A stretch of 64,000 nt of DNA, from NCBI GenBank assembly GCA_028284865.1, contig JANQQV010000006.1:124001-188000 (forward strand). The letters are read 5' to 3'. Source of the DNA: Rhodothermales bacterium. Lineage in GTDB: Bacteria > Bacteroidota > Rhodothermia > Rhodothermales > UBA10348. Position 1 is the first letter of the stretch. Every line of letters begins with the position of its first letter. The notes under the pieces are model-generated. The model had not been told where the DNA came from and did not search any database. It saw only the letters and a list, made by a program, of their open reading frames with translations. Of this stretch, positions 32,301 through 47,400 are shown piece by piece. The position numbers were made by a program, and so were the translations under genes.

Positions 32301-32577
32301 CGAGGTACTGCCCGAATCGTTCCAGATCGAATCAGCCTGGCCGAATCCGTTCCAGGATCAAGTGACCGTCCAGTGGAGCCAACCGGAAACGGAATCCGTT
32401 CGCATCGACGTATTTGATGTTCAGGGCCGTCGGGTGGCCACCTTGCATGAGGGCATGCTGGCCGCCGGAATCCATGACGTGACATGGGATGCTTCCACTG
32501 CGGTTGCTGGGGCCTACTGGATCCGGATGACGACCGACTCCGGCTCCCAGACACGGTCCATCGTCAAGGCGAGATAG
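29392..32577 (+). CDS. secreted Asp-box beta-propeller protein with T9SS type A sorting domain
   Basis: A 1061-residue protein with an N-terminal hydrophobic signal (PLAALFVLMAVALLDS). About ten Asp-box repeats follow, of the form S-x-D-x-G-x-T-W: GIWRTEDAGITWEAM, GIMKSTDGGLTWSF, GIWRSTDGGGSW, GVWKSTDAGLTW, GVFVSNDGGQNW and GIVESRDNGATW. This is a VPS10/sortilin-like or sialidase-like propeller. The last 85 residues (ESAWPNPFQDQVTVQW ... GAYWIRMTTDSG) are a T9SS type A sorting domain that sends the protein across the outer membrane. A region at about residues 390-500 interrupts the propeller with acidic, non-repeat sequence. No catalytic residues can be named. It is likely a cell-surface or secreted binding protein. 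Confidence 0.88.
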   Translation: MPFSALSHSSLRRVRLARIPLAALFVLMAVALLDSRAPSSIETDSFRQGFPDEFARHFHEITVPEGAERSGYTAGYRRTALQTLKAIKKGGSEILPWVERGPGNVGGRTRGIVIDANDQSGNTILAGSVAGGIWRTEDAGITWEAMTEDAPRLTITSIAQAASNPDVLYAGTGEGFPNADAAIGDGIMKSTDGGLTWSFLESTTGGTDFLFVNRVIVSETDENLVLAAAQTGIWRSTDGGGSWTKTQDRGSFYGYYQIIAEPGNFSNQYAVDDGTGVWKSTDAGLTWQESNSGLVEAGSGSRIELDVSPVEPNRLYALVENGSGIDPTYVSVDRGETWSLMAAGTGTTNADIAGTQGWYDLLVHAHPAFVDRAFMGGIGLYRLNQTGDTSLRMFFDGADQENTESFLSFVNFGAPHLGGGLRLGIEEEESTITEEQMVSVEVRFGLGKAQMAHRYVPADQSGVDFVDYPYVDYVEVPFEVWDITNNRQLGVSFRDREGNGVFDLSEYNAEDVDREYVLISARNYTGDTPDAALSVDGGLRTDLAYFFWPVLATGATWDPDNLPESLLRFNWLEQETSERALTQIGNGVHVDQHVMRSVRTGTGDDAFRLVLGNDGGVFVSNDGGQNWISRFRGYNTTQFYGVDKKPGRTIYLGGTQDNGSWRSLGNPGPTSSWFNAGGGDGFDTVWHKQDDRKLLTTSQYTYIRRSVDGGISFDDAITGLLDTGQENQSQFLTALSARTDNSDVVYTIGGSGVWRSADFAETWQLRPIPASEWGYTGGSGKVHVSNANGDIVWAGYEMDPTSSGSDNAGHLHRSLDNGATFEPMPTPSWAPGRISGLNSSHENPNEVFVTFAFFGRPKVIRSLDAGQTWEDLSGFRTGSSGVVSSNGFPDVTTYDVLDFPGTNIIWAATEIGIVESRDNGATWQIADNGLPAVSIWQMRLLDDEVVLATHGRGIWTLPLTTVATDTERAFEVLPESFQIESAWPNPFQDQVTVQWSQPETESVRIDVFDVQGRRVATLHEGMLAAGIHDVTWDASTAVAGAYWIRMTTDSGSQTRSIVKAR

Positions 32578-32775
32578 ATCCTCGCGATCAACCTGTGCGT
32601 TTGAGCCATCTCGAGCCGCCCGGGTAGCGAAGTATAGCCGGCTTGGATCGGCGAGGATGCGGCGTAGTCGGACGCAAATTTTGCGTTTTCAGGCGTTCCC
32701 AAGACTGGACGAACCGCCGCCTCTCGTACGTCCGTTGCCCTTTCCGACGGCCCTCGTCGCTGTCGAAAACGCCTC

Positions 32776-34641
32776 ATGCGCCGTTTCCCGGCCCTTTTTC
32801 TGCTGTTTCTCCTGACAGCCGTCGCGACGACGGCCATGGGTCAGGTACGCGTTGTCTACACGGTCGACAACGTCCACGAAGGCCAGTACACGTCCCACGT
32901 CATGATCACGAACATGACGGCGACGCCCGTTTCTGATTGGGAAATGACCTTCCGAATGGATCAGCATGTCACGGACATCGAGCATGCCGAGTGGGAAGAA
33001 TTCCAGAACGTGTTCACCGTCCGGGGACAAGGCTGGACGAATACCATCCAGCCGGGCGACGTGGCCTGGTTCACGCTGACGGGTGTTGCCTATGGGGAAG
33101 AGCCTGAAATCCCGCGAAGCTGTTTCTTTGACGGTGACCCATGTACGGTGGAGCTGCACCCGGACGCCGACGTCCAGGTGGCCCAGCCGTCCGACATGAT
33201 TGTCTCGGCCTGGATTGAGGACTACGACTTCACAACCTACACCGGATACTTCGTCCTCCAGAACCCGACCGACCACGTGTTTCCTGCAACATGGGGACTG
33301 CAGTTCTCGACGCCCTCGCAGATCATGGAGATCGACGAAGTCATCTGGCGACGCAGCGGGACGAATTACCAAATCAACGGCAATGCGCACACGGACCGCG
33401 TCGATCCTCATGACTTTGTGCTGATCCCGTTCCGCGGGGTTCACTCCGGCACCCCGGTCGAACCGGCCAACTGCCGACTGAATGGCGTCGCATGTTCATT
33501 TCAGCCTCCTGATGCCCTCGTTGATATTCCCGACCTGAAAGTGTTCTTCAAGCTGGGTGAGGTCACGGAAGACGAATGGGAAGGCTATATCCGCATCGAG
33601 AATCCAACCAAGCAGATCCTCTCGAGCTGGGTGCTGCGCTTCTCGATGGACAACGTCATCACCGACGCCGAGGACATGATCCTCGATCGTTCGGGAAGCA
33701 ACTATACCATCCGTCCGGCATTTGGCCGCGGTCGGATCATGCGGGAGACCGACTACGTGTTTGCCATCCGCGGAACGTATTCCGACAGTCTCGACGTGCC
33801 CACCGGATGCACCATCAACTCCGTGCGATGCAACGTCAGCTTCCAGATCCAGGATGCCGTGGACGCAACCGGGGACTCAGGTGGCGGTGACGATGGCGGC
33901 GGCGACGACGGAGGGGGAGACGATGGCGGTGGCGACGACGGCGGTGGAGATGATGGCGGCGGTGGCGACGACGGGGTGACGTGCGCCAACCCGGCCTCCG
34001 GACTCCTGCCCACAATCGATTTCCGATTCCTGTTCACCCGGGCTACTTCCTATGTGGCGTTCCTCGACATCACGAACAACGATATCGCTCCGATCCTCGA
34101 TTGGTCGCTTGAATTCCGGCTTGTCGATGGCATGGGCATTTCGACCATCACCAGTGCACGGGATGTCGAATGGGAATTCATTGGCGGCAATTACCGCATC
34201 GAGCCCACGGCTGACAGCAATTGCATCCTGCCCGGAGAAACGATCCGCTTGAACGTACTCGGGCCTCATGATGGTCGCTTCGGGGAACCGATCGGGTGCA
34301 ACTTCGGCGGCAACATCTGTCAGTTCCAGCAGAAGCTGGCTACCAACCTTGAAGACGAATGGGCCGTGCCCAATGCCGTTGTCCTCAATCCGGCCTACCC
34401 GAACCCCTTCAATCCCCAGTCGACCATCTCTTTCGAAGTCGGGCGGTCCCAGGCCGTTCGGGTTGAATTATGGGATGCGCTCGGCCGGCGTCAGGCCCTG
34501 CTCTACGACGGATTCGCCGCCGCCGGCATGCAACACTCTGTTGCCATTGACGGCAGCCGGCTGGCCTCAGGTATGTACTATGTCCGCCTGCTTCCCGAGA
34601 GTGGGATGATGCAGACCCAGACGATCATCCTGCAGAAGTAG
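32776..34641 (+). CDS. secreted protein with four CBM2-like modules, Gly/Asp linker and T9SS sorting domain
   Basis: A 621-residue protein. The signal peptide covers residues 1-22. Four related beta-sandwich modules lie at about 23-133, 140-247, 250-358 and 405-515. Each has the pattern 'Y-x-V/x-N/x-W-x-F-x-M ... W ... pG' and two cysteines, like family 2 carbohydrate-binding modules. Between the third and fourth is a repeated GGGDD linker. The last 90 residues (NPAYPNPFNPQSTISFEV ... GMYYVRLLPESG) are a T9SS type A sorting domain. There is no catalytic domain, so it probably binds a polysaccharide or acts as a surface adhesin. The CBM2 assignment is by pattern and could be another bacterial Ig-like carbohydrate module. 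Confidence 0.75.
   Translation: MRRFPALFLLFLLTAVATTAMGQVRVVYTVDNVHEGQYTSHVMITNMTATPVSDWEMTFRMDQHVTDIEHAEWEEFQNVFTVRGQGWTNTIQPGDVAWFTLTGVAYGEEPEIPRSCFFDGDPCTVELHPDADVQVAQPSDMIVSAWIEDYDFTTYTGYFVLQNPTDHVFPATWGLQFSTPSQIMEIDEVIWRRSGTNYQINGNAHTDRVDPHDFVLIPFRGVHSGTPVEPANCRLNGVACSFQPPDALVDIPDLKVFFKLGEVTEDEWEGYIRIENPTKQILSSWVLRFSMDNVITDAEDMILDRSGSNYTIRPAFGRGRIMRETDYVFAIRGTYSDSLDVPTGCTINSVRCNVSFQIQDAVDATGDSGGGDDGGGDDGGGDDGGGDDGGGDDGGGGDDGVTCANPASGLLPTIDFRFLFTRATSYVAFLDITNNDIAPILDWSLEFRLVDGMGISTITSARDVEWEFIGGNYRIEPTADSNCILPGETIRLNVLGPHDGRFGEPIGCNFGGNICQFQQKLATNLEDEWAVPNAVVLNPAYPNPFNPQSTISFEVGRSQAVRVELWDALGRRQALLYDGFAAAGMQHSVAIDGSRLASGMYYVRLLPESGMMQTQTIILQK
33880..33976 (+). repeat. in-frame GGGDD-coding tandem repeat
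   Basis: About six copies of a 15-bp unit of the form ggNggNggNgaNgaN encode a Gly/Asp linker inside the CBM2-like protein. Acidic Gly-Asp runs resemble calcium-binding flexible linkers. The synonymous positions vary, so it is not a recent perfect expansion. Confidence 0.8.
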
Positions 34642-34879: not shown

Positions 34880-35446
34880 GTGAAAATCCGCCCCCTCCGT
34901 TGTCTGCTGCTGCTGATTCTGCTCTCGTGCGGATCATTGTCCGCCTACGCGCAGACTTCGGCTTCCCACACGGTGCGGATCGGGATCCAACCCATCACTG
35001 TCATCGCTGTCTCCGGCAATCCTCTTCCCATGATGATTGACCGTGATACGCAGACCGCCATTCGCGACATCACGACGCACTACAATCTGACCACGAACGT
35101 TGATGATGTTTGGATCGAGGCATCCCTGGACTTTCCGATGCCCAACGGCCTGGAGTTGCGCTTGAGTGCAGAAACCGGTCTCGGCCAGTCTCGCGGCTTC
35201 ATGGTTCTGACACCCCGCGCCAGTGGTGGACGCCTTGTAGAAGGTATTTCTCGTGGGTTGGAGAACGGTCGGCTGCTGGCCTATGAGCTGGTTGTCAAGG
35301 ATGAACAGAAGAACATCCCTCTCCAGGATCGCCGTGTGACGCTGGCCATCGTGAACCCTGAAACGGGTTACCGTCAGGAAGTCGTTCAGACCATCACGTT
35401 CTCGTTGGGTGATCCGTTCGACACGTCGGACATCACGAACGAGTAA
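34880..35446 (+). CDS. small secreted protein of unknown function
   Basis: A 188-residue product starting at GTG 34880. VKIRPLRCLLLLILLSCGSLSAYAQ is a signal peptide; the cysteine lies inside the hydrophobic core, so a lipoprotein is less likely. The mature part is beta-rich (SHTVRIGIQPITVIAVSG and THYNLTTNVDDVWIEASLDF), consistent with an Ig-like or pilin-like fold. It resembles in style, not clearly in sequence, the small secreted protein at 40429-40911 of the usher-like locus. It is convergent with the sigma factor gene, 9 bp apart. Function unknown. Confidence 0.65.
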   Translation: MKIRPLRCLLLLILLSCGSLSAYAQTSASHTVRIGIQPITVIAVSGNPLPMMIDRDTQTAIRDITTHYNLTTNVDDVWIEASLDFPMPNGLELRLSAETGLGQSRGFMVLTPRASGGRLVEGISRGLENGRLLAYELVVKDEQKNIPLQDRRVTLAIVNPETGYRQEVVQTITFSLGDPFDTSDITNE

Positions 35447-35455
35447 GAGAGCCGT

Positions 35456-36280
35456 TCAGGCAGCCGTTCGTAACTCGGGCTCGACGGATGCAGCCAGTTT
35501 GTTGAGCGCACCACGCCGAAGCTGGGACACGCGTGCCTCGGAAACTCCGAGGAATGATCCGATCTCTCCCAGGGTCAGCGACTCTCCGAAGTAGAGCTCG
35601 AGAATGGTTCGATCTCGATCATCCAACACCTCGGCACACGACTCAAGGTGAGCACGGATGTCATCCCAATCCATTTTCTCGAATGCCTCACCGGCACCTT
35701 CGTCGGGAAGAATGTCCACCAGACGCAGACCGTTTTCTTCGTCGCGGATTTCGTCCAGGGAGTCCTGATAACGACGAACGGCATCCATGCGGATGACACG
35801 CAACTCGCCGACGGAGATATCCATGGCCTCGGCCAACTCGGGCTCCGATGGAATGGCGCCACGCTCCTGAGCCAGTCGCTCAGACGTTTCGCGCTCACGA
35901 GCAACCTTGGCGCGACGGCGTCGCGGCAACGGGTCGAGTCGACGGAGGAAGTCGATGATCTCACCACGAATGCGCGGGTAAGCAAAGGTGATAAACCGGC
36001 GATTGATGGTCGGGTCAAACAGATCGAGTGCCTGCAGCGTCGCAATCACACCGACATTGAACAGTTCGTCGGGGTTGGCGAGTGCTTCGCCGGGAAGCGC
36101 GATCTTCGAGATGATCGAGCGGATGATGGGCTCCGTGGCGAACACAACGGAGTCACGGGCTTGCTGGGAGGGACACGCATGATAGGCGACGGCCCACCGC
36201 TCAGCTCCTTGCAATTCAGACATGGGAAGAAGGGGTTTGTTGGCGGTTGCGCGGATCGATTCCGCGGCTGCCAACCCCAT
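35456..36280 (-). CDS. FliA/WhiG-type alternative RNA polymerase sigma factor
   Basis: A 274-residue sigma-70-family protein. Region 2 contains PDELFNVGVIATLQALDLFD and the -10 recognition helix FITFAYPRIRGEIIDFLR. Region 3 contains IPSEPELAEAMDISVGELRVI. Region 4 has the helix-turn-helix LTLGEIGSFLGVSEARVSQLRRGALNKL. The layout is that of FliA, WhiG and SigD. There are no flagellar genes in the window, and the neighbours are surface-structure genes. ATG 36280 gives the longest frame. An in-frame ATG at 36223 (MSELQGAERW, 255 residues) would be correct if the sigma54-like promoter at 36282-36297 is used. Confidence 0.88.
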   Translation of the reverse strand: MGLAAAESIRATANKPLLPMSELQGAERWAVAYHACPSQQARDSVVFATEPIIRSIISKIALPGEALANPDELFNVGVIATLQALDLFDPTINRRFITFAYPRIRGEIIDFLRRLDPLPRRRRAKVARERETSERLAQERGAIPSEPELAEAMDISVGELRVIRMDAVRRYQDSLDEIRDEENGLRLVDILPDEGAGEAFEKMDWDDIRAHLESCAEVLDDRDRTILELYFGESLTLGEIGSFLGVSEARVSQLRRGALNKLAASVEPELRTAA

Positions 36281-36281
36281 T

Positions 36282-36297
36282 TCAATCGCCGTGCCGA
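36282..36297 (-). promoter_or_regulatory. sigma54-like -24/-12 element upstream of the sigma factor gene
   Basis: TCGGCACG-GCGA-TTGA on the minus strand has the spacing of the sigma54 consensus TGGCACG-N4-TTGC. It differs by A for C at -12. The same arrangement occurs at 40930-40945. Transcription would start near 36270, downstream of ATG 36280. Confidence 0.4.
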
Positions 36298-36375
36298 CTT
36301 GTCCCGAAGCGAGCAGGCCGTCTTCCCAATTGGCCCTCAGGTTCTCAAAACGCCCTTTTTACGTATCGCGCGTGC

Positions 36376-36406
36376 AAAAAAAGGCCCGGGCATGCGCCCG
36401 GGCCTT
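36376..36406 (-). terminator. rho-independent terminator of the usher-like operon
   Basis: A perfect 11-bp stem AAGGCCCGGGC / GCCCGGGCCTT with tetraloop is followed on the minus strand by seven T. It lies 75 bp after the stop of the usher-like gene and separates that operon from the sigma factor gene. Confidence 0.92.
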
Positions 36407-36413
36407 CCGAGAT

Positions 36414-36431
36414 TGTTTCGCTACCGAAACA
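36414..36431. promoter_or_regulatory. palindromic operator TGTTTCG-N4-CGAAACA, copy 1
   Basis: TGTTTCG-CTAC-CGAAACA is a perfect 7-bp inverted repeat, about 135-150 bp upstream of the sigma factor start. It is a member of a three-copy set (also 40985 and 41525). The distance to the sigma54-like element suits an enhancer-binding protein. Confidence 0.6.
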
Positions 36432-36481
36432 CTGGCGAACCGCTCGCACAACATCCCCGAGCGAACAGGCCTTGGCGGGAC

Positions 36482-39400
36482 TTATCCGCCATCTGCCCAG
36501 TCCAGCAACGCCTGACGCTCCTCGGATGTCAGGCGCCCGGATTCGGGTATCGTCAGGACCTGACCGGGGAGGATGTGATCCGGGTTCGAGATGACGTCGC
36601 GGTTGGCACGCCAGATCCGGATCCAGTGGATCGTGGACCCGTCGTAGTAGCGCCGGGCCAGTTGGGCCAGTGATTCGTTCGTGCCCACCGTGTGGCGGAG
36701 AAGTCCGTCGGAGGAGCGGATGGACTCGCTTTCTTGAGTTCGTTCATCATCCGTTGCCACGTCCTGGTCGGCCTGATCGACCGCGGCGGGTGCGTCCTCT
36801 CGATCGGCATTTTCCTGCGCTTGGTCGTCCGCAGCGGGCTCGTCCCGTTCCAGGGACACACTCACCGACTGGACTGGACGGATGCCGCCTGAAAGCGAAA
36901 TGCCTCCCGAACCCACTAAACGAACCTCCCGACGCTCAGGAGCGATCGTGAGTTCGAGCTCTTGCTGGGATCCGGGGGGCAACTCGACCGAAAGCGTGTC
37001 AGGCCGCGAAACCGTTTCGCTTGGCAACGAGCCTCCCACGATGAATACCTTGAGAGGGCCAGGTACCAGATCCGGGAAGCGGGCCATCCCCTCGCGGTCC
37101 GTGACCCGACGCAGTCTTTCTGAGCCAGAACGGATCTCAACCAATACGCCGGCCTTGTCCGTCTCATCCAGGTCCGTATTGAGTGCCGATTGACGGGCAC
37201 CACCCGTCCCGGTATCGACCCCCACGCGGATCGTGACCTCGGCGCTACGCACGACTGCAATCTCGATGCCCCCTTCCGGCACCAGGCCCGGATCGATCGG
37301 CAGCGGCATGACCGCAATCGGGCGCCGATCGAAGCCTATGCTTGAGCGATCGACGGTCAAGTAGCTCAGTCCCTCAGGCTTCATCCGAACAGCAAATCGC
37401 CCATCCGAGTCTGTCGACGCAGAACGCTCATCCAGCTCGATGATGGCATCAGCAATGGGCTCACCTGTCTCCGCATCCACGATCCTTCCTGTCAATTCCG
37501 TACGCTGGGAATCCATACCCGGGACTGGAAGGAAAAGAGGTACGGACCAGGCTACCGAGAAGCTGGCATTCCTGATGGACGTTTCAAATGCTGTCTGGAC
37601 CGTCCGAGCGCGAAGGGTGAACTCGTGACCGAACGCGAACTGATGCTGGAATCGAACATCCGCCATGGAGAAGGACTGCTCCGAGCGCTTCCGGTCCTCG
37701 CTGTGCAAGCCGCTCACGGTGAGACGTGATCCACTTCCGTTGTCCCACCCGAGATTGAGTCCAAACGTGACTCGCTGCTGTTCGACTGGGTTGTAGAACG
37801 TCGGACCGTCCAGCAGGGAGCCCGTCAGATTAACAGAAAGTGAGCGGCGACTTCCGAAGAGCGAGACCTGGCTGGAGAGATACGGATCGAGTTGTGCACG
37901 CGACGGGTCCTTGCTTTGGCCCCTGCGGGCCTGGGCGTTGATCCCGAAACGCCGGCGATTCAGTGTTACCCGGGACTCCAGGGCGACCTCTTCGCGCCGC
38001 AAATCATTGAGCGTGTTGTCATTGACTTGGCCGATGGCAGTGACTGTCCATGAAGCACGATACGCATCCCGCGTAAGCAGCATCGTGAGCGCCGTGCGAC
38101 CGAGACCAAACGTCTGTTCAGCCCTGCCATCCGCGCCTAGGTCATATTGTCGCTGACGCATGCGGGCCTGGGATGTCCAACGGAGTCCATCGCTGAGCAC
38201 CACGCGCGACGACAGCGTTCCACCCCGTGCACCCCGGATCGCTCCCAGAAAATCGTCATCCGCAGCTTCAGCCTGCATGGATAGCATCGAAGCCCCCCGC
38301 TGCAGGACCATGTTCATCTGGGCCGCCCGACCGGGTTCGTCTCCGAACCACCCCTGCGCGATCTCCGCGCTGAAAAACTGATTGCCCGGCTCATAGGATA
38401 GTCCGAGAGAGGCTGATTCTCCTTCTTCGAATGATCGCTTGGCCATCCCATTGAGTCCCATCGAAAGGTTGGGACGAAGGTTGGTCGACACAAAAGCGAA
38501 GGCCTGCTGCTGATCCGGAAAAACGCGTCGGCTGCGTTGAACGAATCCCCCTGTCTTCAAGCGGGATCGCGTCAGGTCGCCACCGACTCCGAAGCCAAGA
38601 GATCCGACCTCCAGCAGATCTGTCGCATCCCAGTTTTGATCGCCCAACTGCATGGACCAACGCTGGGATGCCATGCGAAAGGCGTAGCGATCCGGCTGGG
38701 AAAACGTCGACTGCTGCCGGGCATCCGGAGCCCTGATCAACGCCTCGATTACCTTACCCTGGACCTGTGTTTCCGGAATGAACAGTTCGAGCTGTCCGGC
38801 ATGGGTTCCGTCCTCAGTCGTGGCCGTGGCGGTGAAGGTTGCCGGCACCGCGTTTTCGGATCGTCCCTGTGATCGAGCGCGTGTCGGGTAAATATCCGTA
38901 TTGAGCGTCAACTGCTTGGATACCTCCTGGCTCCCGTCCGACGTGCTCCCTTCCGCCCGGATTGCTACGGATAACGCATGTGTCAGGCGATTCGTGATGT
39001 CATCACTCGTGTTCACCACCAGATCGACGGAGGCGCTTTCTCCCTCTTCAAGGTCGAGAAAGGCGGGCCGCACGTCCGTTGGCAATGTGAGGGAGCTTCG
39101 CGACTCGATTTCCCATCGGGTTGGAGCGTTTCCGGTATTGGTCACCCGCAACGTCGCTTCTATGCGGGAGCCGGCCCGAACCAATTCCTGCGTGTCCAGC
39201 CACTCGGCACTCACCTGCGGGCGAGCGGGTACCGTGACGCGCAAGGTCAGCCGATTCTCTTCATCGGCCTCCGTGCTTATGACAATCTCGTAGTCAGCGG
39301 CTATCGCGTCGGAAGGGACGGTGAACGTCAGCAACTGACTCGTTGACGTACCAGGCTGGACCACGACCGACGGAGGTGGAATCAAAATCGACCAGCCGGT

Positions 39401-39625
39401 TGGAAGGACAGGTCTCAAGCGCGCGGTGAGTGGAACGTCTCCGGTGTTGTGGATCTGGATTGGGCGACTTCCCACCGATCCGGGAGCCAGGACCAGGACT
39501 GCCTCGTCTGCAACGCGCAGATCGAGCGCGTCCTGTCCGCTCGCCATCCCGACCGGCAGAGCGGCCAAAAACCAGGCGAACAGAACTCGTGTGATGAATG
39601 AGGGGGTACTAGAGGGTAAGCTCAT
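36482..39625 (-). CDS. usher-like outer-membrane protein with C-terminal LysM domain
   Basis: A 1047-residue protein. A signal peptide covers about residues 10-31 (VLFAWFLAALPVGMASGQ). Two to three Ig-like (NEW3-type) modules follow at about 40-250. A central region at about 275-730 is composed of alternating amphipathic strands and looks like a large beta barrel; it opens with WSMQLGDQNW, reminiscent of the GD motif at the start of fimbrial usher barrels. A carboxypeptidase-regulatory-like module (LTGRIVDAETGEPIADAIIEL) lies at about 735-820 and an acidic linker (about 935-985) follows. The chain ends in a LysM domain (HTVGTNESLAQLARRYYDG), which would anchor it to peptidoglycan. The usher reading is inference from architecture and from the chaperone-like neighbour. 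It overlaps that gene by 17 bp. Confidence 0.65.
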   Translation of the reverse strand: MSLPSSTPSFITRVLFAWFLAALPVGMASGQDALDLRVADEAVLVLAPGSVGSRPIQIHNTGDVPLTARLRPVLPTGWSILIPPPSVVVQPGTSTSQLLTFTVPSDAIAADYEIVISTEADEENRLTLRVTVPARPQVSAEWLDTQELVRAGSRIEATLRVTNTGNAPTRWEIESRSSLTLPTDVRPAFLDLEEGESASVDLVVNTSDDITNRLTHALSVAIRAEGSTSDGSQEVSKQLTLNTDIYPTRARSQGRSENAVPATFTATATTEDGTHAGQLELFIPETQVQGKVIEALIRAPDARQQSTFSQPDRYAFRMASQRWSMQLGDQNWDATDLLEVGSLGFGVGGDLTRSRLKTGGFVQRSRRVFPDQQQAFAFVSTNLRPNLSMGLNGMAKRSFEEGESASLGLSYEPGNQFFSAEIAQGWFGDEPGRAAQMNMVLQRGASMLSMQAEAADDDFLGAIRGARGGTLSSRVVLSDGLRWTSQARMRQRQYDLGADGRAEQTFGLGRTALTMLLTRDAYRASWTVTAIGQVNDNTLNDLRREEVALESRVTLNRRRFGINAQARRGQSKDPSRAQLDPYLSSQVSLFGSRRSLSVNLTGSLLDGPTFYNPVEQQRVTFGLNLGWDNGSGSRLTVSGLHSEDRKRSEQSFSMADVRFQHQFAFGHEFTLRARTVQTAFETSIRNASFSVAWSVPLFLPVPGMDSQRTELTGRIVDAETGEPIADAIIELDERSASTDSDGRFAVRMKPEGLSYLTVDRSSIGFDRRPIAVMPLPIDPGLVPEGGIEIAVVRSAEVTIRVGVDTGTGGARQSALNTDLDETDKAGVLVEIRSGSERLRRVTDREGMARFPDLVPGPLKVFIVGGSLPSETVSRPDTLSVELPPGSQQELELTIAPERREVRLVGSGGISLSGGIRPVQSVSVSLERDEPAADDQAQENADREDAPAAVDQADQDVATDDERTQESESIRSSDGLLRHTVGTNESLAQLARRYYDGSTIHWIRIWRANRDVISNPDHILPGQVLTIPESGRLTSEERQALLDWADGG

Positions 39626-40424
39626 ACTGGCCGCCGAACACGGCATCATCTCCGTCATCCACGATCAACAGCGCCTGGTACGTGCCCGGTTCGAGCGACG
39701 TCAGGTCAATGCGCTGCTGGACGCTCGTACCTGGATAGAGTCGGTACTGAACGCCCTCGAACGGTCCGTATTCACTGCCGTCTGCAGCGAAAACCCGCAT
39801 GTACACGTTCGGGTGCATCATGAGGTCGCCCACATTGATCACGTCCGAATGAAACCACGTATTGCCTTCTTCATCGGCGACAAGCTGGATGCGATCGAAC
39901 GCGACGTCACGGGAGGATCCGTCGCGAATGTGCGCAGCCAACTGGATGCCGTAGCGCGTCACCTGACGAAATCCGAGCGCCTGCTGGTCGTCGGCTTGCT
40001 CGCCGACAGTCGACTCAGCAGAGTTCGGGTCGACGCCCTCGACCATCAACATGGACCACCATGATCCAGCTGTTGCCGAATCCGGTATGGCGATGGAATA
40101 AGAGACAGTCGCAGACGCTCCTGCCGGAATGGTCGCGTTCTCAGGAGAGAACTGTACCCAGGGAGCATTCGAGCGCTCAACTGTGCCAGGGGGATCGTAG
40201 GCGTTCGTGCCATCGGCGAAAAACAGGTAGTCCCGCAGATAGATGCGCGCCTGTTGAGCCTGGTCCGTCTCATTGTCAATCGTGACCGTTCCCGAGACGG
40301 TCTGTCCCGGTCCGGCCTCCAGGTCGTGAGCCAGCCGTCCGCGGACGGTAATCTGCGCCGAGCTGGTCTCCACGAGGAAAACAGCGAGCAGCGCGAGGAC
40401 CATCACTGACCGACGAAAGGCCAC
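39609..40424 (-). CDS. periplasmic chaperone-like Ig-fold protein
   Basis: A 271-residue protein. GTG 40424 starts VAFRRSVMVLALLAVFLVETSSAQ, a signal peptide, four bases after the stop of the preceding gene. Longer starts overlap that gene. The mature protein has two Ig-like halves: GTVTIDNETDQAQQARIYLRDY, then APWVQFSPENATIPAGASATVSYSIAIP. This resembles the first domain of PapD-type chaperones (DUF916-like proteins share the pattern). The expected role is to hold secreted subunits for the usher-like protein. No classical PapD Arg/Lys pair can be assigned with certainty. Confidence 0.6.
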   Translation of the reverse strand: MAFRRSVMVLALLAVFLVETSSAQITVRGRLAHDLEAGPGQTVSGTVTIDNETDQAQQARIYLRDYLFFADGTNAYDPPGTVERSNAPWVQFSPENATIPAGASATVSYSIAIPDSATAGSWWSMLMVEGVDPNSAESTVGEQADDQQALGFRQVTRYGIQLAAHIRDGSSRDVAFDRIQLVADEEGNTWFHSDVINVGDLMMHPNVYMRVFAADGSEYGPFEGVQYRLYPGTSVQQRIDLTSLEPGTYQALLIVDDGDDAVFGGQYELTL

Positions 40425-40428
40425 CGGA

Positions 40429-40911
40429 TTACATGTCCGTGACCGTGTAAGTAACTGTGTGCACATCGCTCAACCCGTATTCGGTACTGCCGTTTTCAAT
40501 GGAGGCACTGGCCGTGTAGACTAATCGCGCGGAGCCAAAATTGTTCTTCCGCACGTTCGTGAGCAGCGTCGTCTCCTGCATGCCGTCACGCAGCTGAATG
40601 CGACCCGTTGCATTGGCACGACTCACATTGGTCGCCTCAACGAACAGATCGAATTGCTGGCCCGGGCTGAAGGTAGACACTGTGATCTTGCTGTTCTGCC
40701 GTCCGCGTCCCCAGATCAGCAGGGTTGAGTTGTCTTCATCCTGCGCACCCGCACCTTCGGATGTCGGATCCACATCCAGCTGGACATTCGGAGTCCCCCA
40801 AAGGTAGAGGCTCCGATTGTCCGATCCACCCCACCACTGAGCCGACGCTTCAGGAGCTGCCAGGATGCCCAGGAAGAGGGTGAGAAGTGCTATGTGCAGA
40901 ATGCGTTTCAT
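40429..40911 (-). CDS. small secreted pilin-like subunit, first gene of the usher-like operon
   Basis: A 160-residue protein. MKRILHIALLTLFLGILAAPEASA is a clear signal peptide. The mature chain of about 136 residues is beta-rich (NSKITVSTFSPGQQFDLFVEATN and GRIQLRDGMQETTLL), has no cysteine, and ends with alternating strand residues (HTVTYTVTDM), like donor-strand complemented subunits. It is followed by the chaperone-like and usher-like genes, the usual subunit-chaperone-usher order. Family not recognised; the pilin role is inferred from context. Confidence 0.6.
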   Translation of the reverse strand: MKRILHIALLTLFLGILAAPEASAQWWGGSDNRSLYLWGTPNVQLDVDPTSEGAGAQDEDNSTLLIWGRGRQNSKITVSTFSPGQQFDLFVEATNVSRANATGRIQLRDGMQETTLLTNVRKNNFGSARLVYTASASIENGSTEYGLSDVHTVTYTVTDM

Positions 40912-40929
40912 GGTTGTGTGCGAAAAGAA

Positions 40930-40945
40930 TCAAATCCCGTGCCAA
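40930..40945 (-). promoter_or_regulatory. sigma54-like -24/-12 element upstream of the pilin-like gene
   Basis: TTGGCACG-GGAT-TTGA on the minus strand has exact sigma54 spacing, with A for C at -12. A start near 40918 would leave only a 7-nt leader, which is unusually short. The parallel with 36282-36297 supports it. Confidence 0.45.
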
Positions 40946-40984
40946 GCCGAAAAGGCGCTCTTGGGCCGCAATTGGCGATTTGAA

Positions 40985-41003
40985 GTGTTTCGCTGGCGAT
41001 ACG
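40985..41003. promoter_or_regulatory. palindromic operator TGTTTCG-N4-CGAAACA, copy 2 (imperfect)
   Basis: GTGTTTCG-CTGG-CGATACG lies about 75-90 bp upstream of the pilin-like gene and 40-58 bp upstream of the sigma54-like element. Confidence 0.5.
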
Positions 41004-41082
41004 GCTTCGTGTTTTGAGTGGAACAGGTCGGAGTCTTCGGCGACCAGCGTCGAGGGACCCAATCACTCGAGTGATTCGGGGC

Positions 41083-41508
41083 TTAGAGGATCCAGTTGGC
41101 TTGCTCGCGATCGCCAGACCAGGGATTGACATACTCGGGTCCGACGCGGGCGAAGATCAGGCACTGTGATCCGCGGTGGATTTCGTTGGCGCGATAGGCA
41201 TCGCGCAGGCCGAGCTGGTTCAGATCGACGACAAAGCTGAGGGGATCAGCGTCGCTGTTGTTCTGGGAGGCGAGGGAAGACGTGGTGGCCTGTAGTGCCG
41301 GATACTCGGGCGTCGACAGGGCTTCAAGGCTTGAATACATGAACATGGTCGTGTCCAGGTTGGGGTTCTCGTTCGGGACACTCCCCTTCAATTCGCATGC
41401 CTTTGTGCTCCGAGCCCCCTTGGGGACGACGGCAGATTGCACCATTTTCCGCCTTAATGTGCCTGAATAGGCGGTTTTGAGCTCCTTGGCCCGCATATGT
41501 GCCGTCAT
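41083..41508 (-). CDS. hypothetical protein
   Basis: A 141-residue product from ATG 41508. It has no signal peptide, a basic N-terminus (MRAKELKTAYSGTLRRK) and a more ordinary C-terminal half (DPLSFVVDLNQLGLRDAYRANEI and LIFARVGPEYVNPW). The open frame continues upstream without a convincing start, and the coding nature rests on composition and position. It precedes the pilin-like gene on the same strand by 171 bp. A perfect TGTTTCG palindrome sits 17 bp before its start. I do not recognise the family. Confidence 0.45.
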   Translation of the reverse strand: MTAHMRAKELKTAYSGTLRRKMVQSAVVPKGARSTKACELKGSVPNENPNLDTTMFMYSSLEALSTPEYPALQATTSSLASQNNSDADPLSFVVDLNQLGLRDAYRANEIHRGSQCLIFARVGPEYVNPWSGDREQANWIL

Positions 41509-41524
41509 CAAGCCGGCCCTACAA

Positions 41525-41544
41525 GTGTTTCGGTGGCGAAACAC
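41525..41544. promoter_or_regulatory. palindromic operator TGTTTCG-N4-CGAAACA, copy 3
   Basis: GTGTTTCG-GTGG-CGAAACAC is a perfect 8-bp inverted repeat, 17 bp upstream of the hypothetical gene at 41508 and 145 bp upstream of the divergent receiver-kinase gene at 41689. It could serve either. Confidence 0.6.
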
Positions 41545-41688: not shown

Positions 41689-42864
41689 ATGACGTCACCT
41701 GCTGAATCATCCCCATCCGCTGCTGCGCCTCGATCCGTCCTGGTCGTGGATGACAATGCGTTGAACCGACAGATGCTGTCGGATTTCGTCGAGATGCTGG
41801 GCCATGAATGCCGGGATGCGGACAACGGCGCTTCAGCCCTGGAAATCATCCGCTCCTGGCGTCCCGATACCGTGCTTCTGGACAACCAGATGCCAGAGAT
41901 GAGCGGGATCGAGGTACTTCAGGCGCTGGCCGATGATGAGGAGCTGCGCCACATACCCGTTATCATGATTTCGGGCAAGGACGATCTGGGCACGGTAACC
42001 GAGGCGCTCGAGGCAGGCGCCGTCGACTTCATGGGCAAGCCGTTCAATCCGGCCATCCTGAAAGCCCGATTGACCTCCAGCTTCGAACGGAAAGCGCTCC
42101 GGGACCGGGAGCGGGAATTGCTGCACACGCTGGAAAAAAGCTACCAGGACCTGCGCCAGGCCGAAGCCGGTCGGGATGCGCTTACCCATATGATTGTCCA
42201 CGACCTGGGTAATCCGCTGGCGGTCATCAAAATGAACGCCGAGATGCTGGACATGACGGCGGCGATGGGGATAGCCCCCACGGCTGAAGCGCTGCACCAG
42301 CGGGTTGGGTACATCACATCGGCTTCGTCGTCCATGGACACCATGATTCGAAGCATGTTGGATGTCTCCAAGATGGAATCCGGCCAGTTGGAGCCCTCGC
42401 TAACGGCGGTCGATATCACCGCGCTCCTGAACGAGCTTCAAACGCGGTTTGCACCCATCAGTGAAGACGCCGGAATGGCCATCCGTGTGGAGGCTGACGA
42501 GACCATCACGGCCTCAACCGACCAAGTGCTCATTGAACGCATGATCGGCAACCTGCTCTCGAATGCATTCAAATATGCCGAAGGTGCTTCCGAGGTGGTT
42601 CTATCCGTCGGCCGGGATGCGAGCGACATCGTGGTCGGTGTCAGCGACAATGGGCGCGGCATACCCGAAGAGGTGCACGATCGGATCTTCGACAAATTCT
42701 ACCAGGTCGAGTCGCGCGAAGACGGCGCAGCTCGCGCTGGAGTCGGACTGGGACTCGCATTTTGCCGCATGGCGGCCGACGTCCTGGGAGGCAGCATCCG
42801 TGTCGAGACCAACCAGCCCAACGGAACCCGTTTCGTGATCACCCTGCCCGGCGTCAGTCCTTGA
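41689..42864 (+). CDS. soluble hybrid kinase with N-terminal receiver domain
   Basis: A 391-residue protein. An N-terminal receiver domain at about residues 15-130 has phospho-acceptor Asp65 (TVLLDNQMPEMSG). A HisKA domain follows with His171 in MIVHDLGNPLAVI, and a HATPase_c domain at about 265-388 (NLLSNAFKY, DNGRGIPEE and GVGLGLAFC). There is no membrane segment. The receiver-first order suggests a kinase whose activity is set by another kinase. It is convergent with the sigma54 activator gene, overlapping it by 11 bp. Confidence 0.88.
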   Translation: MTSPAESSPSAAAPRSVLVVDDNALNRQMLSDFVEMLGHECRDADNGASALEIIRSWRPDTVLLDNQMPEMSGIEVLQALADDEELRHIPVIMISGKDDLGTVTEALEAGAVDFMGKPFNPAILKARLTSSFERKALRDRERELLHTLEKSYQDLRQAEAGRDALTHMIVHDLGNPLAVIKMNAEMLDMTAAMGIAPTAEALHQRVGYITSASSSMDTMIRSMLDVSKMESGQLEPSLTAVDITALLNELQTRFAPISEDAGMAIRVEADETITASTDQVLIERMIGNLLSNAFKYAEGASEVVLSVGRDASDIVVGVSDNGRGIPEEVHDRIFDKFYQVESREDGAARAGVGLGLAFCRMAADVLGGSIRVETNQPNGTRFVITLPGVSP

Positions 42865-44224
42865 TCCCGAACTTCTTGAGCTTGGCGTAGATGTTCGATC
42901 GCTGCAGGTCGATGGCTTCGCTCAGACGGCTGATGTTGCCGTCAAACTCCATCAGCTTGCGGCGCAGGAAGGCAGCTTCCGCGGCGTCCCTGAACTCGGC
43001 GATCGTCGGATTCTCGCCGACCAGATAGGCAATCGAATCCTCCGGTGCTGAACCCGGATTGGTGAACAGGTCGACATCCTCTTCCGTGATGGCGTCTTCT
43101 TCGCTGAGCACGATCAACCGTTCGACGGCGTTGTGCAGCTCTCGCACGTTTCCGCGCCAGGGATAGGTGGCCAACAGGGCCAGCGCTTCCTTGGTGAAAT
43201 GCTTCTCAGGACGCGCATTGCGCTTGCTGAGTTTGTCGCAAAAAAACTCGGCCAGCTGAGGGATGTCCTCGGCGCGATCCCTGAGTGGTGGCGATTCGAT
43301 GCGGATGACCGCCAATCGATGGAAAAGGTCATCGCGGAACGTGCCTTCCGAAATGGCCTTCTCGAGATCCTTGTTGGTGGCGCACACCACACGCACGTCC
43401 ACGCGGATGTCCTTGTCACCACCCACGCGTCGGATCATGCTTTCCTGCAAGGCGCGCAGGACTTTCGCCTGCGCCGGGTAGGCCATGTCGCCCACCTCGT
43501 CCAGGAAGAGAGTGCCGCCATCGGCCTGTTCAAACGAACCAATGTGCTGCTTGTGCGCGCCCGTGAATGAGCCCTTCTCGTGACCAAACAACTCGCTTTC
43601 GATCAGCTCGGACGGAATGGCTGCACAGTTGACCGCGATGAACGGGCCATCCTTGCGATCGGACAGGTGATGGACCCACTGTGCCACGAGCTCCTTGCCG
43701 GACCCGGCTTCACCGGTCACCATGACGCGTGCTTCGCTCGGCGCAGCGCGTTCGAGCAGCTTTTTGATGCGCTGCATCGCCTTGCTTTCACCCAGCAGCG
43801 GGGGAATGTTGCTGTCGATTTTCGAGAGCCGCGCCTTCATGCGCGTGTGCTCCGTCTTCAGCTGTTTGGTATCAAGCGCATTACGAACCGTGACCAGGAA
43901 GTGCTGCAGGTTCGGGGGCTTGGGGACGAAGTCGTAGGCACCCTCCTTGATGGCTTCAACGGCCTTCTCGATCGTGGCGTGGGCCGTGAGCATGATGAAC
44001 GGCAGCTCGGGATACGCCGCTTTGGCATCTTTGAGCAAACCCATGCCATCCTTGACCGGCATCTGGATGTCCGAGAGTACCAGGTCGTACGAACCTGCAG
44101 CCAGCTTCTCCAGGCCTTCGACGCCGTTGCCGGCCTCATCCACCTCGTGCCCCTGCATGCTCATCAGGTCTTTCAAGGTGCGGCGGATACCAGCTTCGTC
44201 GTCTACTATCAGGAGGCGAGCCAT
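42854..44224 (-). CDS. NtrC-family sigma54-dependent response regulator
   Basis: A 456-residue protein. A receiver domain at about 1-120 has Asp52 (LVLSDIQMPVKDG). An AAA+ domain at about 143-375 has Walker A GEAGSGKE (171-178), the sigma54-contact loop GSFTGA (218-223, Ser for the second Ala of GAFTGA), Walker B GTLFLDEVGD and the arginine region FRDDLFHRLAVI. A C-terminal Fis-type helix-turn-helix follows (ISRLSEAIDLQRSNIYAKLKKFG). It activates sigma54 promoters. The sigma54-like elements at 36282 and 40930 and the palindromes near them are its candidate targets. Confidence 0.93.
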   Translation of the reverse strand: MARLLIVDDEAGIRRTLKDLMSMQGHEVDEAGNGVEGLEKLAAGSYDLVLSDIQMPVKDGMGLLKDAKAAYPELPFIMLTAHATIEKAVEAIKEGAYDFVPKPPNLQHFLVTVRNALDTKQLKTEHTRMKARLSKIDSNIPPLLGESKAMQRIKKLLERAAPSEARVMVTGEAGSGKELVAQWVHHLSDRKDGPFIAVNCAAIPSELIESELFGHEKGSFTGAHKQHIGSFEQADGGTLFLDEVGDMAYPAQAKVLRALQESMIRRVGGDKDIRVDVRVVCATNKDLEKAISEGTFRDDLFHRLAVIRIESPPLRDRAEDIPQLAEFFCDKLSKRNARPEKHFTKEALALLATYPWRGNVRELHNAVERLIVLSEEDAITEEDVDLFTNPGSAPEDSIAYLVGENPTIAEFRDAAEAAFLRRKLMEFDGNISRLSEAIDLQRSNIYAKLKKFGIKD

Positions 44225-44411: not shown

Positions 44412-47400
44412 TTGAACCGAATCTGCTCCATATCGACCGGCGTCGTACGCGTCTTTCTTTGCGTCCTCATGTCGCTGCTCGCCATTCCAGGTGGGGCGCG
44501 CGATGCGGCTGCGCAGGATTCGGCGTCTCTTCAGGAGCTGGGGTATCCCGTCATCCGGCACTATCGCGCGTTCGAATACGGACAAAATCCGGTCAACCAC
44601 GACATCGCCGTCTCGAACGAAGGCTTGGTCTACGTGGCCAATCAGGACGGATTGCTTGAGTTTGATGGTACCGAATGGCGACTGATTCCGCTGGCTGGGC
44701 GCCAAACGCCGACCCGTCTCACCCTGGCTGCTGATGGATCGCTCCTTATTGGCTCCGAAGGTGATGTGGGCACTCTCATGGCGGACGATGCCAATCGGGC
44801 GGTCTACTCGTCCCTCCTCGAGGGTTCTGGCGAAGAGCGCAGTCCGGACAATGTGAGTCAGCTGCTGAAGGCTGGCGAAACCACGTTTTTCATCACGCCC
44901 TCGCGCATCCTTGCTCACACGGTGGATACGCTCCGGACCTTTACACCCGTAGCTCCGATCCAGCGCGCTTTTGTCAACGATGACAGCCTGTTCGTCGTGC
45001 TCTGGGGTCGCGGGCTGACCCGCCTGCAGAATGGCGAGTTCGTGGATGTGGCTGCCGGTCTCCCGTTTGCACGAGATGAACTCCGGTACTCGGCGGCCTT
45101 GAGTGATTCGACAATTCTGCTTGGTCGTGCCTCCGGCGCGGCCGACGTCTATTCGCGAGGCCAGCTGGCCTCAGCGGACTCGGTACTGGGCGCCAATCCA
45201 CTCGCATTGAATGCGCTGGGCGACGATGTGCGGACGGCCAAGCGACTTACAGACGGTACACTGGTCATGGGTTTTTCGGACGGTCGCTTGGCCGTCCGCA
45301 CCCCGCGTGCTTCCGGATTCGAATTCCTGGACTTTACAGACGGCCTTCCTTTTGGGGACATCAACGGCCTCAGTGAGGATGCCTCCGGGAATGTCTGGTT
45401 GGCCACGAGCGATGGGGTCGCCCGATTGGATATCCGCAGTGCCGTGTCCTCACCACCGGCCAGCTCGGGCTGGTCCGGCCCCGTTCGGGCCGTAGCTCAT
45501 CTTGGGAACGACCTTTACATCGGCACCGATCGGGGTTTGCTCATGGCGGACCGCACTGATCAGCGCTTGCCCATGGCCTTCGAGCCTGTACCTGGCGCGG
45601 ACGAGCCCATCTCGAATCTTATCTCGGCCCGAGGCGACTTGATCTCCGTCAGCGGAAGCCGAATCCGGGTCCTGCCGCTCGGCAATGCCAACCTGGCCTA
45701 TGTGATAGACCTGGAGACCCAGGTTCACACCCTCACGCCTTCCCAACGTCAGGAAGATGTCATCTGGGTGGGTGTCGATGGAGGTGTCATTCGCCTCTCC
45801 TACAATCCGCTGCCTTCCCGCTGGTCACCATCGGGTCGATTGGAGGGCGAGGGACTTTCCCCTCATGCCCTTTCAGAGGACGCCACGGGAGCCATCTGGG
45901 CAGGGCTCGCCCCGTCAGGCCTGGCGCGTCTCGTATGGCCGCCCACGGACTCGACGGCCACTGCGGTTACCCGGTTCGATGAGCGCAACGGGCTCCCGGC
46001 CAGCATGGCGCGACCGTTCCGGATTGATGATCGTCTTGCCGCGTGGGCACGTTCGGGTTTCTACGTTTTCGACTCAGCAAACAACCGCTTCTTCGCTTCC
46101 AACAGCCTGGGTCTGAATACCGTAACCATCCCCACCGATCTGCGCTTTGTGACGTCCACACCGGGCGACAGCATTTGGGTCGTTGGGGCCTCCCTGGCTG
46201 GTATCGTGCCACCGACCGAAGGAGACACCGGACGGCGATTCGATCTCAATGATGGCCTTCAGCGCATCAGTGACGCGGCCATCCATCAACTTTCATGCGA
46301 CCCCGGCTCGGAGGGCAAGCGATGCTGGTTTGCCACGGACCGCGGTCTGCTGCTGTTCCTGGTCGAAGCCGGGCGCGCCACCGGCGCCGAGCTGCCGGTT
46401 CGCATTCGCAGTGTCGAAGCCGGTGGACAGCCGATTTATGGCGGTGGCGCCCCCGGTCAGCACGAAATCCCGGACTTCAAATTATACTTTGAAGACAACG
46501 ACGTGGCCTTCAATTGGTCCGCGCCGGACTTCGATGACTTCTCCGGTATCCGATTCCAGTACCGACTCGTCGGACTGGACGATGCCTTCTCCGAGTGGAC
46601 GGCCGACACGCGGGCGCTCTACACCGAGCTGCCCGAAGACTCGTACGCCTTTGAGGTACGCGCCCTTTCGCCAACCGGCCGCACAGGTCCCGTCTCGCGC
46701 GTGACCTTCACCGTCTCACCCCCATGGTTCCGGACACTGTGGGCCCTCGCATTGTATGCCATCCTGTTCGTCGTGTCGATCTATGTCGCCGGCAAGAGCC
46801 TCGCTCGCTATCACGTTGGCCAGCTCAGCGAGAGCAATGAACGGTTGGCCGCGCGCCTTCAATCGCGGACACAGGAAGTGGAAGCTCAGCGGCAGCAGCT
46901 CGAATCTCACAACCAGGAGCTTGAGTCCCGTCACCTGGAGCTGATGCAACAACAGCGGCAGCTGGAGATCCGGCACGAGGAGCTTCGCAAGAGCAAGCTC
47001 CGGATTGAGGATCAGGCCGCTCAGATGGCTTCGCAGAACAAGGAGATGGAGATCCAGCGACGAGAAATGGAGCGCCAGCGACGACTGCTGGCCCGGGCCA
47101 ACGAAGCACTCGAAGAAAGCAGTGAGCGGGCGGCACGTTTCGCCGAAGATGCCCAGCAGGCCACCAGTGCAAAGAGCCGCTTTCTGGCCAACATGAGTCA
47201 TGAGATCCGCACACCGATGAATGCCATCATCGGCTTCACCGACCTGCTTTCGCGTAAGGTGCAGGATGCCGAGCTGAATCGCTACGTGACCCAGATTCAG
47301 TCTTCGAGCCGCTCCCTGCTCACGTTGATCAACGACATCCTCGACCTTTCGAAAGTCGAAGCCGGAAAGCTCGACATCGTCCCGGCGCCCATGGATTTGC

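Follow-up and report, generated by a model that had tools for sequence, protein, structure and literature searches.

What does an 18-bp palindrome control that occurs three times around a sigma-factor gene and a small cluster of surface-protein genes? The question is raised by a 64-kb stretch of a Rhodothermales genome (positions 124001-188000 of contig C8 in G000, a 3.48-Mb assembly of 28 contigs), called the window below, in which TGTTTCG-N4-CGAAACA lies upstream of several elements resembling sigma54 promoters. The palindrome is very probably a control switch shared within a family of uncultured Rhodothermales: the upstream activating sequence (UAS) of an NtrC-class bacterial enhancer-binding protein (bEBP), which would drive the sigma54 promoters of pilin-like genes, of the surface cluster and of the sigma-factor gene. 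Sequence supports the palindrome, the candidate promoters, their spacing and conservation and the gene families, and structure models support the predicted folds.

It is established that a receiver-type bEBP, bound to a dyad 40-140 bp upstream of a promoter, loops to the RNA polymerase holoenzyme with sigma54. In the circuit proposed here the receiver would be phosphorylated and the bEBP would assemble on TGTTTCG-N4-CGAAACA, after which the palindrome-bound protein would loop the DNA and remodel RNA polymerase-sigma54 at a -24/-12 promoter located 41-138 bp further on. The putative targets are dispersed, near-identical pilin-like genes, a cluster coding for an 87-aa, a 160-aa, a chaperone-like and an usher-like protein, and the gene of a FliA/WhiG-like sigma factor. 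A single signal may thereby turn on a second-tier sigma factor along with a programme for surface fibres. The binder could be the bEBP encoded in the window (B), its universal paralog A encoded on contig C6, or both.

Copies of the palindrome and their conservation

All three copies in the window are on the minus strand. UAS 1 (36414-36431) is exact (TGTTTCGGTAGCGAAACA) and lies 117 bp upstream of the promoter of the sigma-factor gene. UAS 2 (40986-41003) is imperfect, with two mismatches (CGTATCGCCAGCGAAACA), and lies 41 bp upstream of the promoter of the 160-aa gene; its promoter-proximal half, CGAAACA, is intact, a half-site pattern like that of the UASs of the sigma gene. UAS 3 (41526-41543) is again exact (TGTTTCGCCACCGAAACA) and is found between a small gene on the minus strand and a hybrid kinase gene on the plus strand. 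The first-pass annotation had reported an exact, an imperfect and a further exact copy, and these were recovered as such, the positions 40985 and 41525 given for the last two being off by one.

With 14 fixed bases and the given base composition, 0.00013 exact palindromes are expected per 64 kb and 0.007 per genome, while 2 and 7, respectively, were seen. No one-mismatch copy was found in the genome, and the reversed motif, which served as control, gave zero. When up to three mismatches were allowed, the window contained 4 matches versus 2.7 in shuffled sequences, which is no excess. Since relaxed matching yields no excess in the window, the case is built on the exact copies, on the other loci and on conservation, and for the imperfect copy at 40986 the support comes from its context and its conservation.

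Of 41 genomes searched, nine contained the exact palindrome, among them that of the window, and all nine belong to one family; the control was present in none of the 41. A composite of the palindrome, a gap and GG-N8-TTG was detected in nine genomes, all of one family, out of 114 of the order, with zero matches for the control. Those orthologs of the activator that are named derive from metagenome assemblies of Rhodothermales, and the assemblies of some relatives are fragmented. Exact or near counterparts of UAS 3 stand at the same place in the locus L033 and in G008, G016, G017, G020 and G023.

Five exact copies lie beyond the window, 64 or 75 bp upstream of -24/-12 elements (TGGCCCG-TGCC-TTGCA, TGGCGCG-TGGC-TTGCA and CGGCACG-TGCT-TTGCC). 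Where the contig continues, they precede genes of secreted proteins of about 157 aa; some meet the contig end first. These proteins belong to a pilin-like family, whose profile detected members in 19 of 41 genomes. All of the members that are more than 60% identical to the family and have enough upstream sequence carry the palindrome (0-2 mismatches, one copy being cut by Ns), and in the promoters behind it GG, C and TTG are invariant (22/22). The possibility that the palindromes occur near unrelated genes only, which had been named as an argument against the proposal, proved wrong for nearly all copies.

Candidate promoters behind the palindromes

Exact matches to YGGCACG-N4-TTGM were found at two sites only in the window, both on the minus strand, and these are the twin YGGCACG-N4-TTGA elements pointed out earlier. 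The first (36282-36296, CGGCACG-GCGA-TTGA, with A at -12) is the candidate promoter of the sigma gene, the second (40930-40944, TGGCACG-GGAT-TTGA) that of the 160-aa gene. A third candidate, AGGCATG-CGAA-TTGA (41387-41402, minus strand), precedes the 87-aa gene and is the weakest of the three. At up to two mismatches the count of the window pattern equals that of the shuffles.

Elements corresponding to the one at 40930 stand at the equivalent position in G008 (TTGCA), in G016 and G020 (TTGTA) and in G023 (TTGCC); none was found in G017 or L033. The short leader at 40918, regarded before as a weak point of this promoter, is common to the counterparts in G016, G020 and G023, as far as their starts can be placed. 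The equivalents of the 87-aa gene in G008, G016, G020 and G023 have TTGCC promoters with the palindrome 53-75 bp away.

Sigma54 promoters normally prefer C at -12 strongly. A C was present at this position in 16 of 22 pilin promoters and in all four small-gene promoters, in none of nine sigma-gene promoters and in none of the three window elements; the -24 GG and the TTG were present in every one of them. In the pilin genes of this genome and of nine relatives the distance from UAS to promoter is 43, 52, 64, 74-75 or 107-108 bp. The distances follow a periodicity of 10.5-11 bp; at 10.5 bp the unique pilin values give R 0.82, with P 0.005 relative to random gaps.

Candidate activators

The genome was found to contain rpoN, the presence of which had been suggested as a check; it is intact and in full frame (Sigma54_DBD E 1.2e-60) with the RpoN box ARRTVTKYREQQGIP. 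Six bEBPs are encoded. Bioinformatic dissection of B (42854-44224, minus strand), the candidate UAS-binding activator, gave a receiver, an AAA+ domain with the GSFTGA loop (Sigma54_activat E 2.7e-70) and a Fis-type helix-turn-helix (HTH), predicted from sequence at the C-terminus, the recognition helix of which (LQRSNIYAKL) is invariant in 8 orthologs. For the named equivalogs NtrC, AtoC and NtrX the score of B stays under the curated thresholds. As described in the first-pass annotation, the gene is flanked by sensor kinases, both of them hybrids: a receiver-histidine kinase (41689-42864, plus strand, assigned by Pfam), which is syntenic in 9/9 loci and is a candidate sensor partner, and a kinase with a Reg_prop/Y_Y_Y sensor region (44412-48599, plus strand). 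In the loci that bear the operon, B and the palindromes occur in synteny, and B was found in G000, G003, G005, G008, G016, G017, G020 and G023.

Several results weigh against the proposed circuit. YGGCACG-N4-TTGCW with at most one mismatch occurs 76 times in the genome versus 87 times for the control, and since the motif is not enriched, the promoter elements are called from position together with conservation, not from the motif alone. All three window promoters have another base in place of the -12 C, the window spacings of 41, 117 and 123 bp agree less closely with helical steps, and related genomes are counted as independent in the phase test. The palindrome at G024:C95:31954 (L024) precedes a weak element, CGGCATG-GCGC-TTCCA (CGGCATGGCGCTTCCA), with no pilin behind it; this is possibly the remnant of a decayed promoter. 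B is missing in G002, G004, G006, G011, G021 and G024, all of which keep the palindrome, at pilin promoters (0-2 mismatches) or, in G024, alone. Finally, A has an invariant recognition helix throughout the order, while the palindromes are confined to one family.

Since B is absent from these palindrome-bearing relatives, another bEBP must act there, most likely A (G000:C6:97943-99298), a paralog 54% identical to B. It is a credible possibility, though not the one that we favour, that A reads the palindrome everywhere and B controls other promoters. A is encoded in every palindrome-bearing genome, including G004 (two contigs, 96% complete) and G006, which have bEBPs of the A, C and D types only, and its helix, IQRSHLYNKM, is nearly identical to that of B. 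The unchanged helix of A outside the palindrome-bearing family speaks against such an assignment, as does the lack of any near-palindrome in the examined surroundings of the A gene, and for the sites at the sigma gene and the surface operon synteny holds with B, not with A. The simplest reading would be that A and B recognize identical or almost identical sites, B being specialised to the sigma/operon locus. Of the earlier proposal that one NtrC-type regulator serves both the surface structure and the sigma factor, the shared UAS and the sigma54-type promoters were supported; B, absent from six palindrome-bearing relatives, is a candidate for the binder.

The search for near-palindromes close to the genes of A, C and D returned a single match with two mismatches, near C. 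bEBPs E (C15) and F (C10) were rejected as cognate regulators, as their distribution does not track the palindrome. A bEBP encoded at G000:C15:4056-5411 (L134) has a degenerate receiver, its loop reads GAFTDA in place of GAFTGA, and it is possibly unable to activate sigma54.

Other conceivable functions of the palindrome and of the -12 A elements

Perfect dyads with 4-bp spacers would suit one-component repressors as well, and the palindrome could be the operator of an unrelated dimeric regulator or the site of a DNA-architectural protein, the bEBP being bound elsewhere or not to DNA at all. This is improbable in view of the arrangement at dozens of promoters, where the palindrome stands at UAS distance, always upstream of the -24/-12 element and never overlapping it, in near-helical steps.

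We give equally little credit to the idea that the 36282 and 40930 elements are something other than sigma54 promoters, with the A at -12 inactivating them or serving another sigma factor. The missing C, which had been listed as a weak point in the first-pass annotation, is the argument for it. However, all nine orthologous loci carry GGCA-N6-TTGA, which has a background density of 0.007 per 100 bp, unchanged in front of the sigma gene. Identity among the sigma proteins is 43-69% and the upstream flanks align poorly, yet the UAS and GGCA-N6-TTGA are retained. Since the element does not vary although its surroundings drift, the A at -12 is, judged by its sequence conservation, a fixed feature of the sigma-gene promoter, that is, a conserved promoter variant. 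Moreover, a pilin promoter of G004 also reads TTGAA and other pilin promoters TTGTA, and at the position of the 40930 element TTGCA or TTGCC is found in relatives.

A role of the palindrome as transcription terminator or as repetitive element (similar to repetitive extragenic palindromes, REP, or miniature inverted-repeat transposable elements, MITE) is very improbable: several copies do lie near contig ends, i.e. in repeats, and UAS 1 directly follows the stop of the usher-like gene, but no U-run follows the palindrome, a separate GC-rich hairpin with a T-run comes after UAS 1, the contig-end copies are accounted for by repeated pilin genes, and the surroundings of copies in different genes are unrelated. 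The hairpin, a strong one, occupies 36376-36406 between UAS 1 and the sigma promoter and is the probable terminator of the usher-like gene; its position implies that the enhancer lies ahead of the terminator of the upstream operon.

The sigma-factor gene

The sigma factor (35456-36223, minus strand) has 255 aa and begins with MSELQGAE. The start was assigned to the ATG at 36223, which is conserved in the orthologs, and not to that at 36280, which overlaps the promoter. Sigma-70 regions 2, 3 and 4 exceed the Pfam cut-offs. TIGR02479 is the best family (E 2.6e-44), but the score of 151.6 bits is below the curated cut-off of 189.6, and the protein is therefore called only FliA/WhiG-like.

UAS 1 has positional counterparts in the eight other loci, so that a palindrome, exact or degenerate, precedes the sigma gene in 9/9. 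Its promoter-proximal half GAAACA is invariant save for a terminal G in one locus, GAAAC being common to all nine. The loci L030 (G005) and L032 (G003) have no surface operon and keep the bEBP, the hybrid kinase and the sigma gene, preceded by its promoter with A at -12 and a degenerate palindrome. Since the sigma gene is retained there, the sigma factor must have other uses. Upstream of neighbouring genes, promoters of the FliA/WhiG type (TAAA-N15-GCCGATAA) were not found above the random level, and second-tier targets were not found among them.

The surface cluster and the pilin-like family

The order of the locus is T9SS (type IX secretion system)-type cargo genes, pilin-like gene, sigma gene, usher-like, chaperone-like, 160-aa and 87-aa genes, hybrid kinase, bEBP and hybrid kinase, and it is kept, wholly or partly, across the orthologous loci. 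The 87-aa protein (41083-41346, minus strand), encoded by the first gene of the cluster, has homologs, detected by tblastn, in the corresponding position of G017 and L033. The 160-aa gene (40429-40911, minus strand) is the first of three syntenic surface genes. Its product is a secreted protein and a candidate fibre subunit; the C-terminus, HTVTYTVTDM, resembles RTVTYTITNN of the pilin family, and no Pfam or NCBIfam family was found for it. The chaperone-like protein of 285 aa (39609-40466, minus strand) shows 57-63% identity across genera and a weak match to WxLIP_PGBD (E 5.8e-4). The usher-like outer-membrane protein (36482-39658, minus strand, 1058 aa) is predicted to contain immunoglobulin-like (Ig) domains, a long beta-barrel, CarboxypepD_reg and Ig domains, and LysM.

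In the Pfam and NCBIfam searches no pilin, PapD-like chaperone or usher family was matched except for a weak hit of the usher-like protein to CooC_C (E 0.067), which likewise points to an usher. Searches of PDB sequences with the chaperone, usher-like and pilin profiles gave LysM and very weak matches only. The AlphaFold2 (AF2) model of the usher-like protein (pLDDT 75.6, pTM 0.44) had FimD/PapC as its best Foldseek matches (E 3e-12), with low TM-scores of 0.2-0.4, and it has no obvious plug. In case of the pilin family (AF2 model, pLDDT 82.7) the top VIA matches were mostly chaperone-usher pilins (CfaB, CfaE, FimG, FimA, PapA, CsuA/B), their Z of 6-8.2 being suggestive only; archaeal cannula proteins were tied with them and integrin domains scored lower. 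On these models it is plausible that the surface cluster works like a chaperone-usher system. Since no sequence family is matched, we claim likeness to such systems and not membership in them.

Several contig ends of G000 (C5; C8, 306909-307052; C12, 1-110; C14, 1-110; C16, 238602-238828; C28, 1-190; loci L001 and L004-L007) carry near-identical pilin-like genes or their promoters. The assembly probably breaks where one pilin gene, together with its enhancer, is present in several dispersed, near-identical copies. Fragments of the family are found at contig ends of relatives too (C17, C51, C41 and C57 of G016, C226/C227 of G017), which suggests that multi-copy pilins are a trait of the family.

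A farther-reading proposal can be put forward only tentatively, and we consider it rather unlikely as a whole: that members of this Rhodothermales family make a chaperone-usher-type pilus unrecognisable by sequence, with near-identical, dispersed major pilins each having its own enhancer; that sigma54 switches on the pilus and the FliA/WhiG-like sigma factor; and that the obligatory A at -12 of the sigma promoter marks a distinct functional class of sigma54 promoters.

Relation to known systems

The proposed circuit is of a known kind and the surface system was previously undescribed. The closest likeness is to QseF/GlrR of enterobacteria, the UAS of which has the form TGT-N12-ACA and which acts at the sigma54 promoters of glmY and rpoE (PMC6075780, PMC4987338). 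A receiver-type bEBP, an 18-bp UAS with the TGT-N12-ACA frame, a sigma54 promoter in front of a sigma-factor gene and the envelope theme are shared. Here, however, the inner bases are TTCG...CGAA, the targets are pilin-like, usher-like and FliA/WhiG-like sigma genes, -12 is A, glmY is absent, the phylum is different and the binding is predicted. Flagellar hierarchies that lead from RpoN and its bEBP to FliA are known, for example FleQ/RpoN2 of Xanthomonas (PMC5550985); such hierarchies resemble the present circuit in serving a surface structure with sigma54 and a sigma28-family factor as tiers, and differ from it in that the structure here would be pilus-like and the neighbouring genes lack FliA-type promoters above background.

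With chaperone-usher pili (type 1, P, CFA/I and archaic Csu) the cluster shares, according to the models, subunits of the pilin fold, the set of assembly genes and an usher-like barrel; it differs in lacking a sequence-family match, in the extra LysM and CarboxypepD_reg domains and in the low global TM-scores of the usher-like model. B shares the receiver, the AAA+ domain with GSFTGA and the C-terminal Fis-type HTH with the NtrC/NtrX family, unlike whose named equivalogs it stays below the curated cut-offs. We found no paper on chaperone-usher systems of Rhodothermota or on sigma54 regulons with bEBPs in Bacteroidetes.

The locus offers a testable regulon, with UAS, promoters, activator candidates and targets, for a family represented here almost exclusively by metagenome assemblies. 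It would also link sigma54 to a pilus-like surface system missed by domain libraries, which would agree with an earlier suggestion of sigma54 as a controller of the cell exterior (PMC3162934). With its A at -12 fixed across three genera, the sigma-gene promoter provides a natural experiment on the strictness with which sigma54 recognizes this position.

Neighbouring genes

A divergent member of the pilin-like family is encoded next to the sigma gene (34880-35446, plus strand). It is 34-36% identical to the other members and is matched by the profile with E 2.2e-54, the underlying alignment including this protein itself. Adjoining it, 29392-34641 codes for a 1061-aa protein and for a CBM_2/Por_Secre_tail protein, the latter domain being a T9SS sorting signal. 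In L030 and L032 the CBM_2 and pilin-like genes are gone along with the surface operon, and the 1061-aa gene stays.

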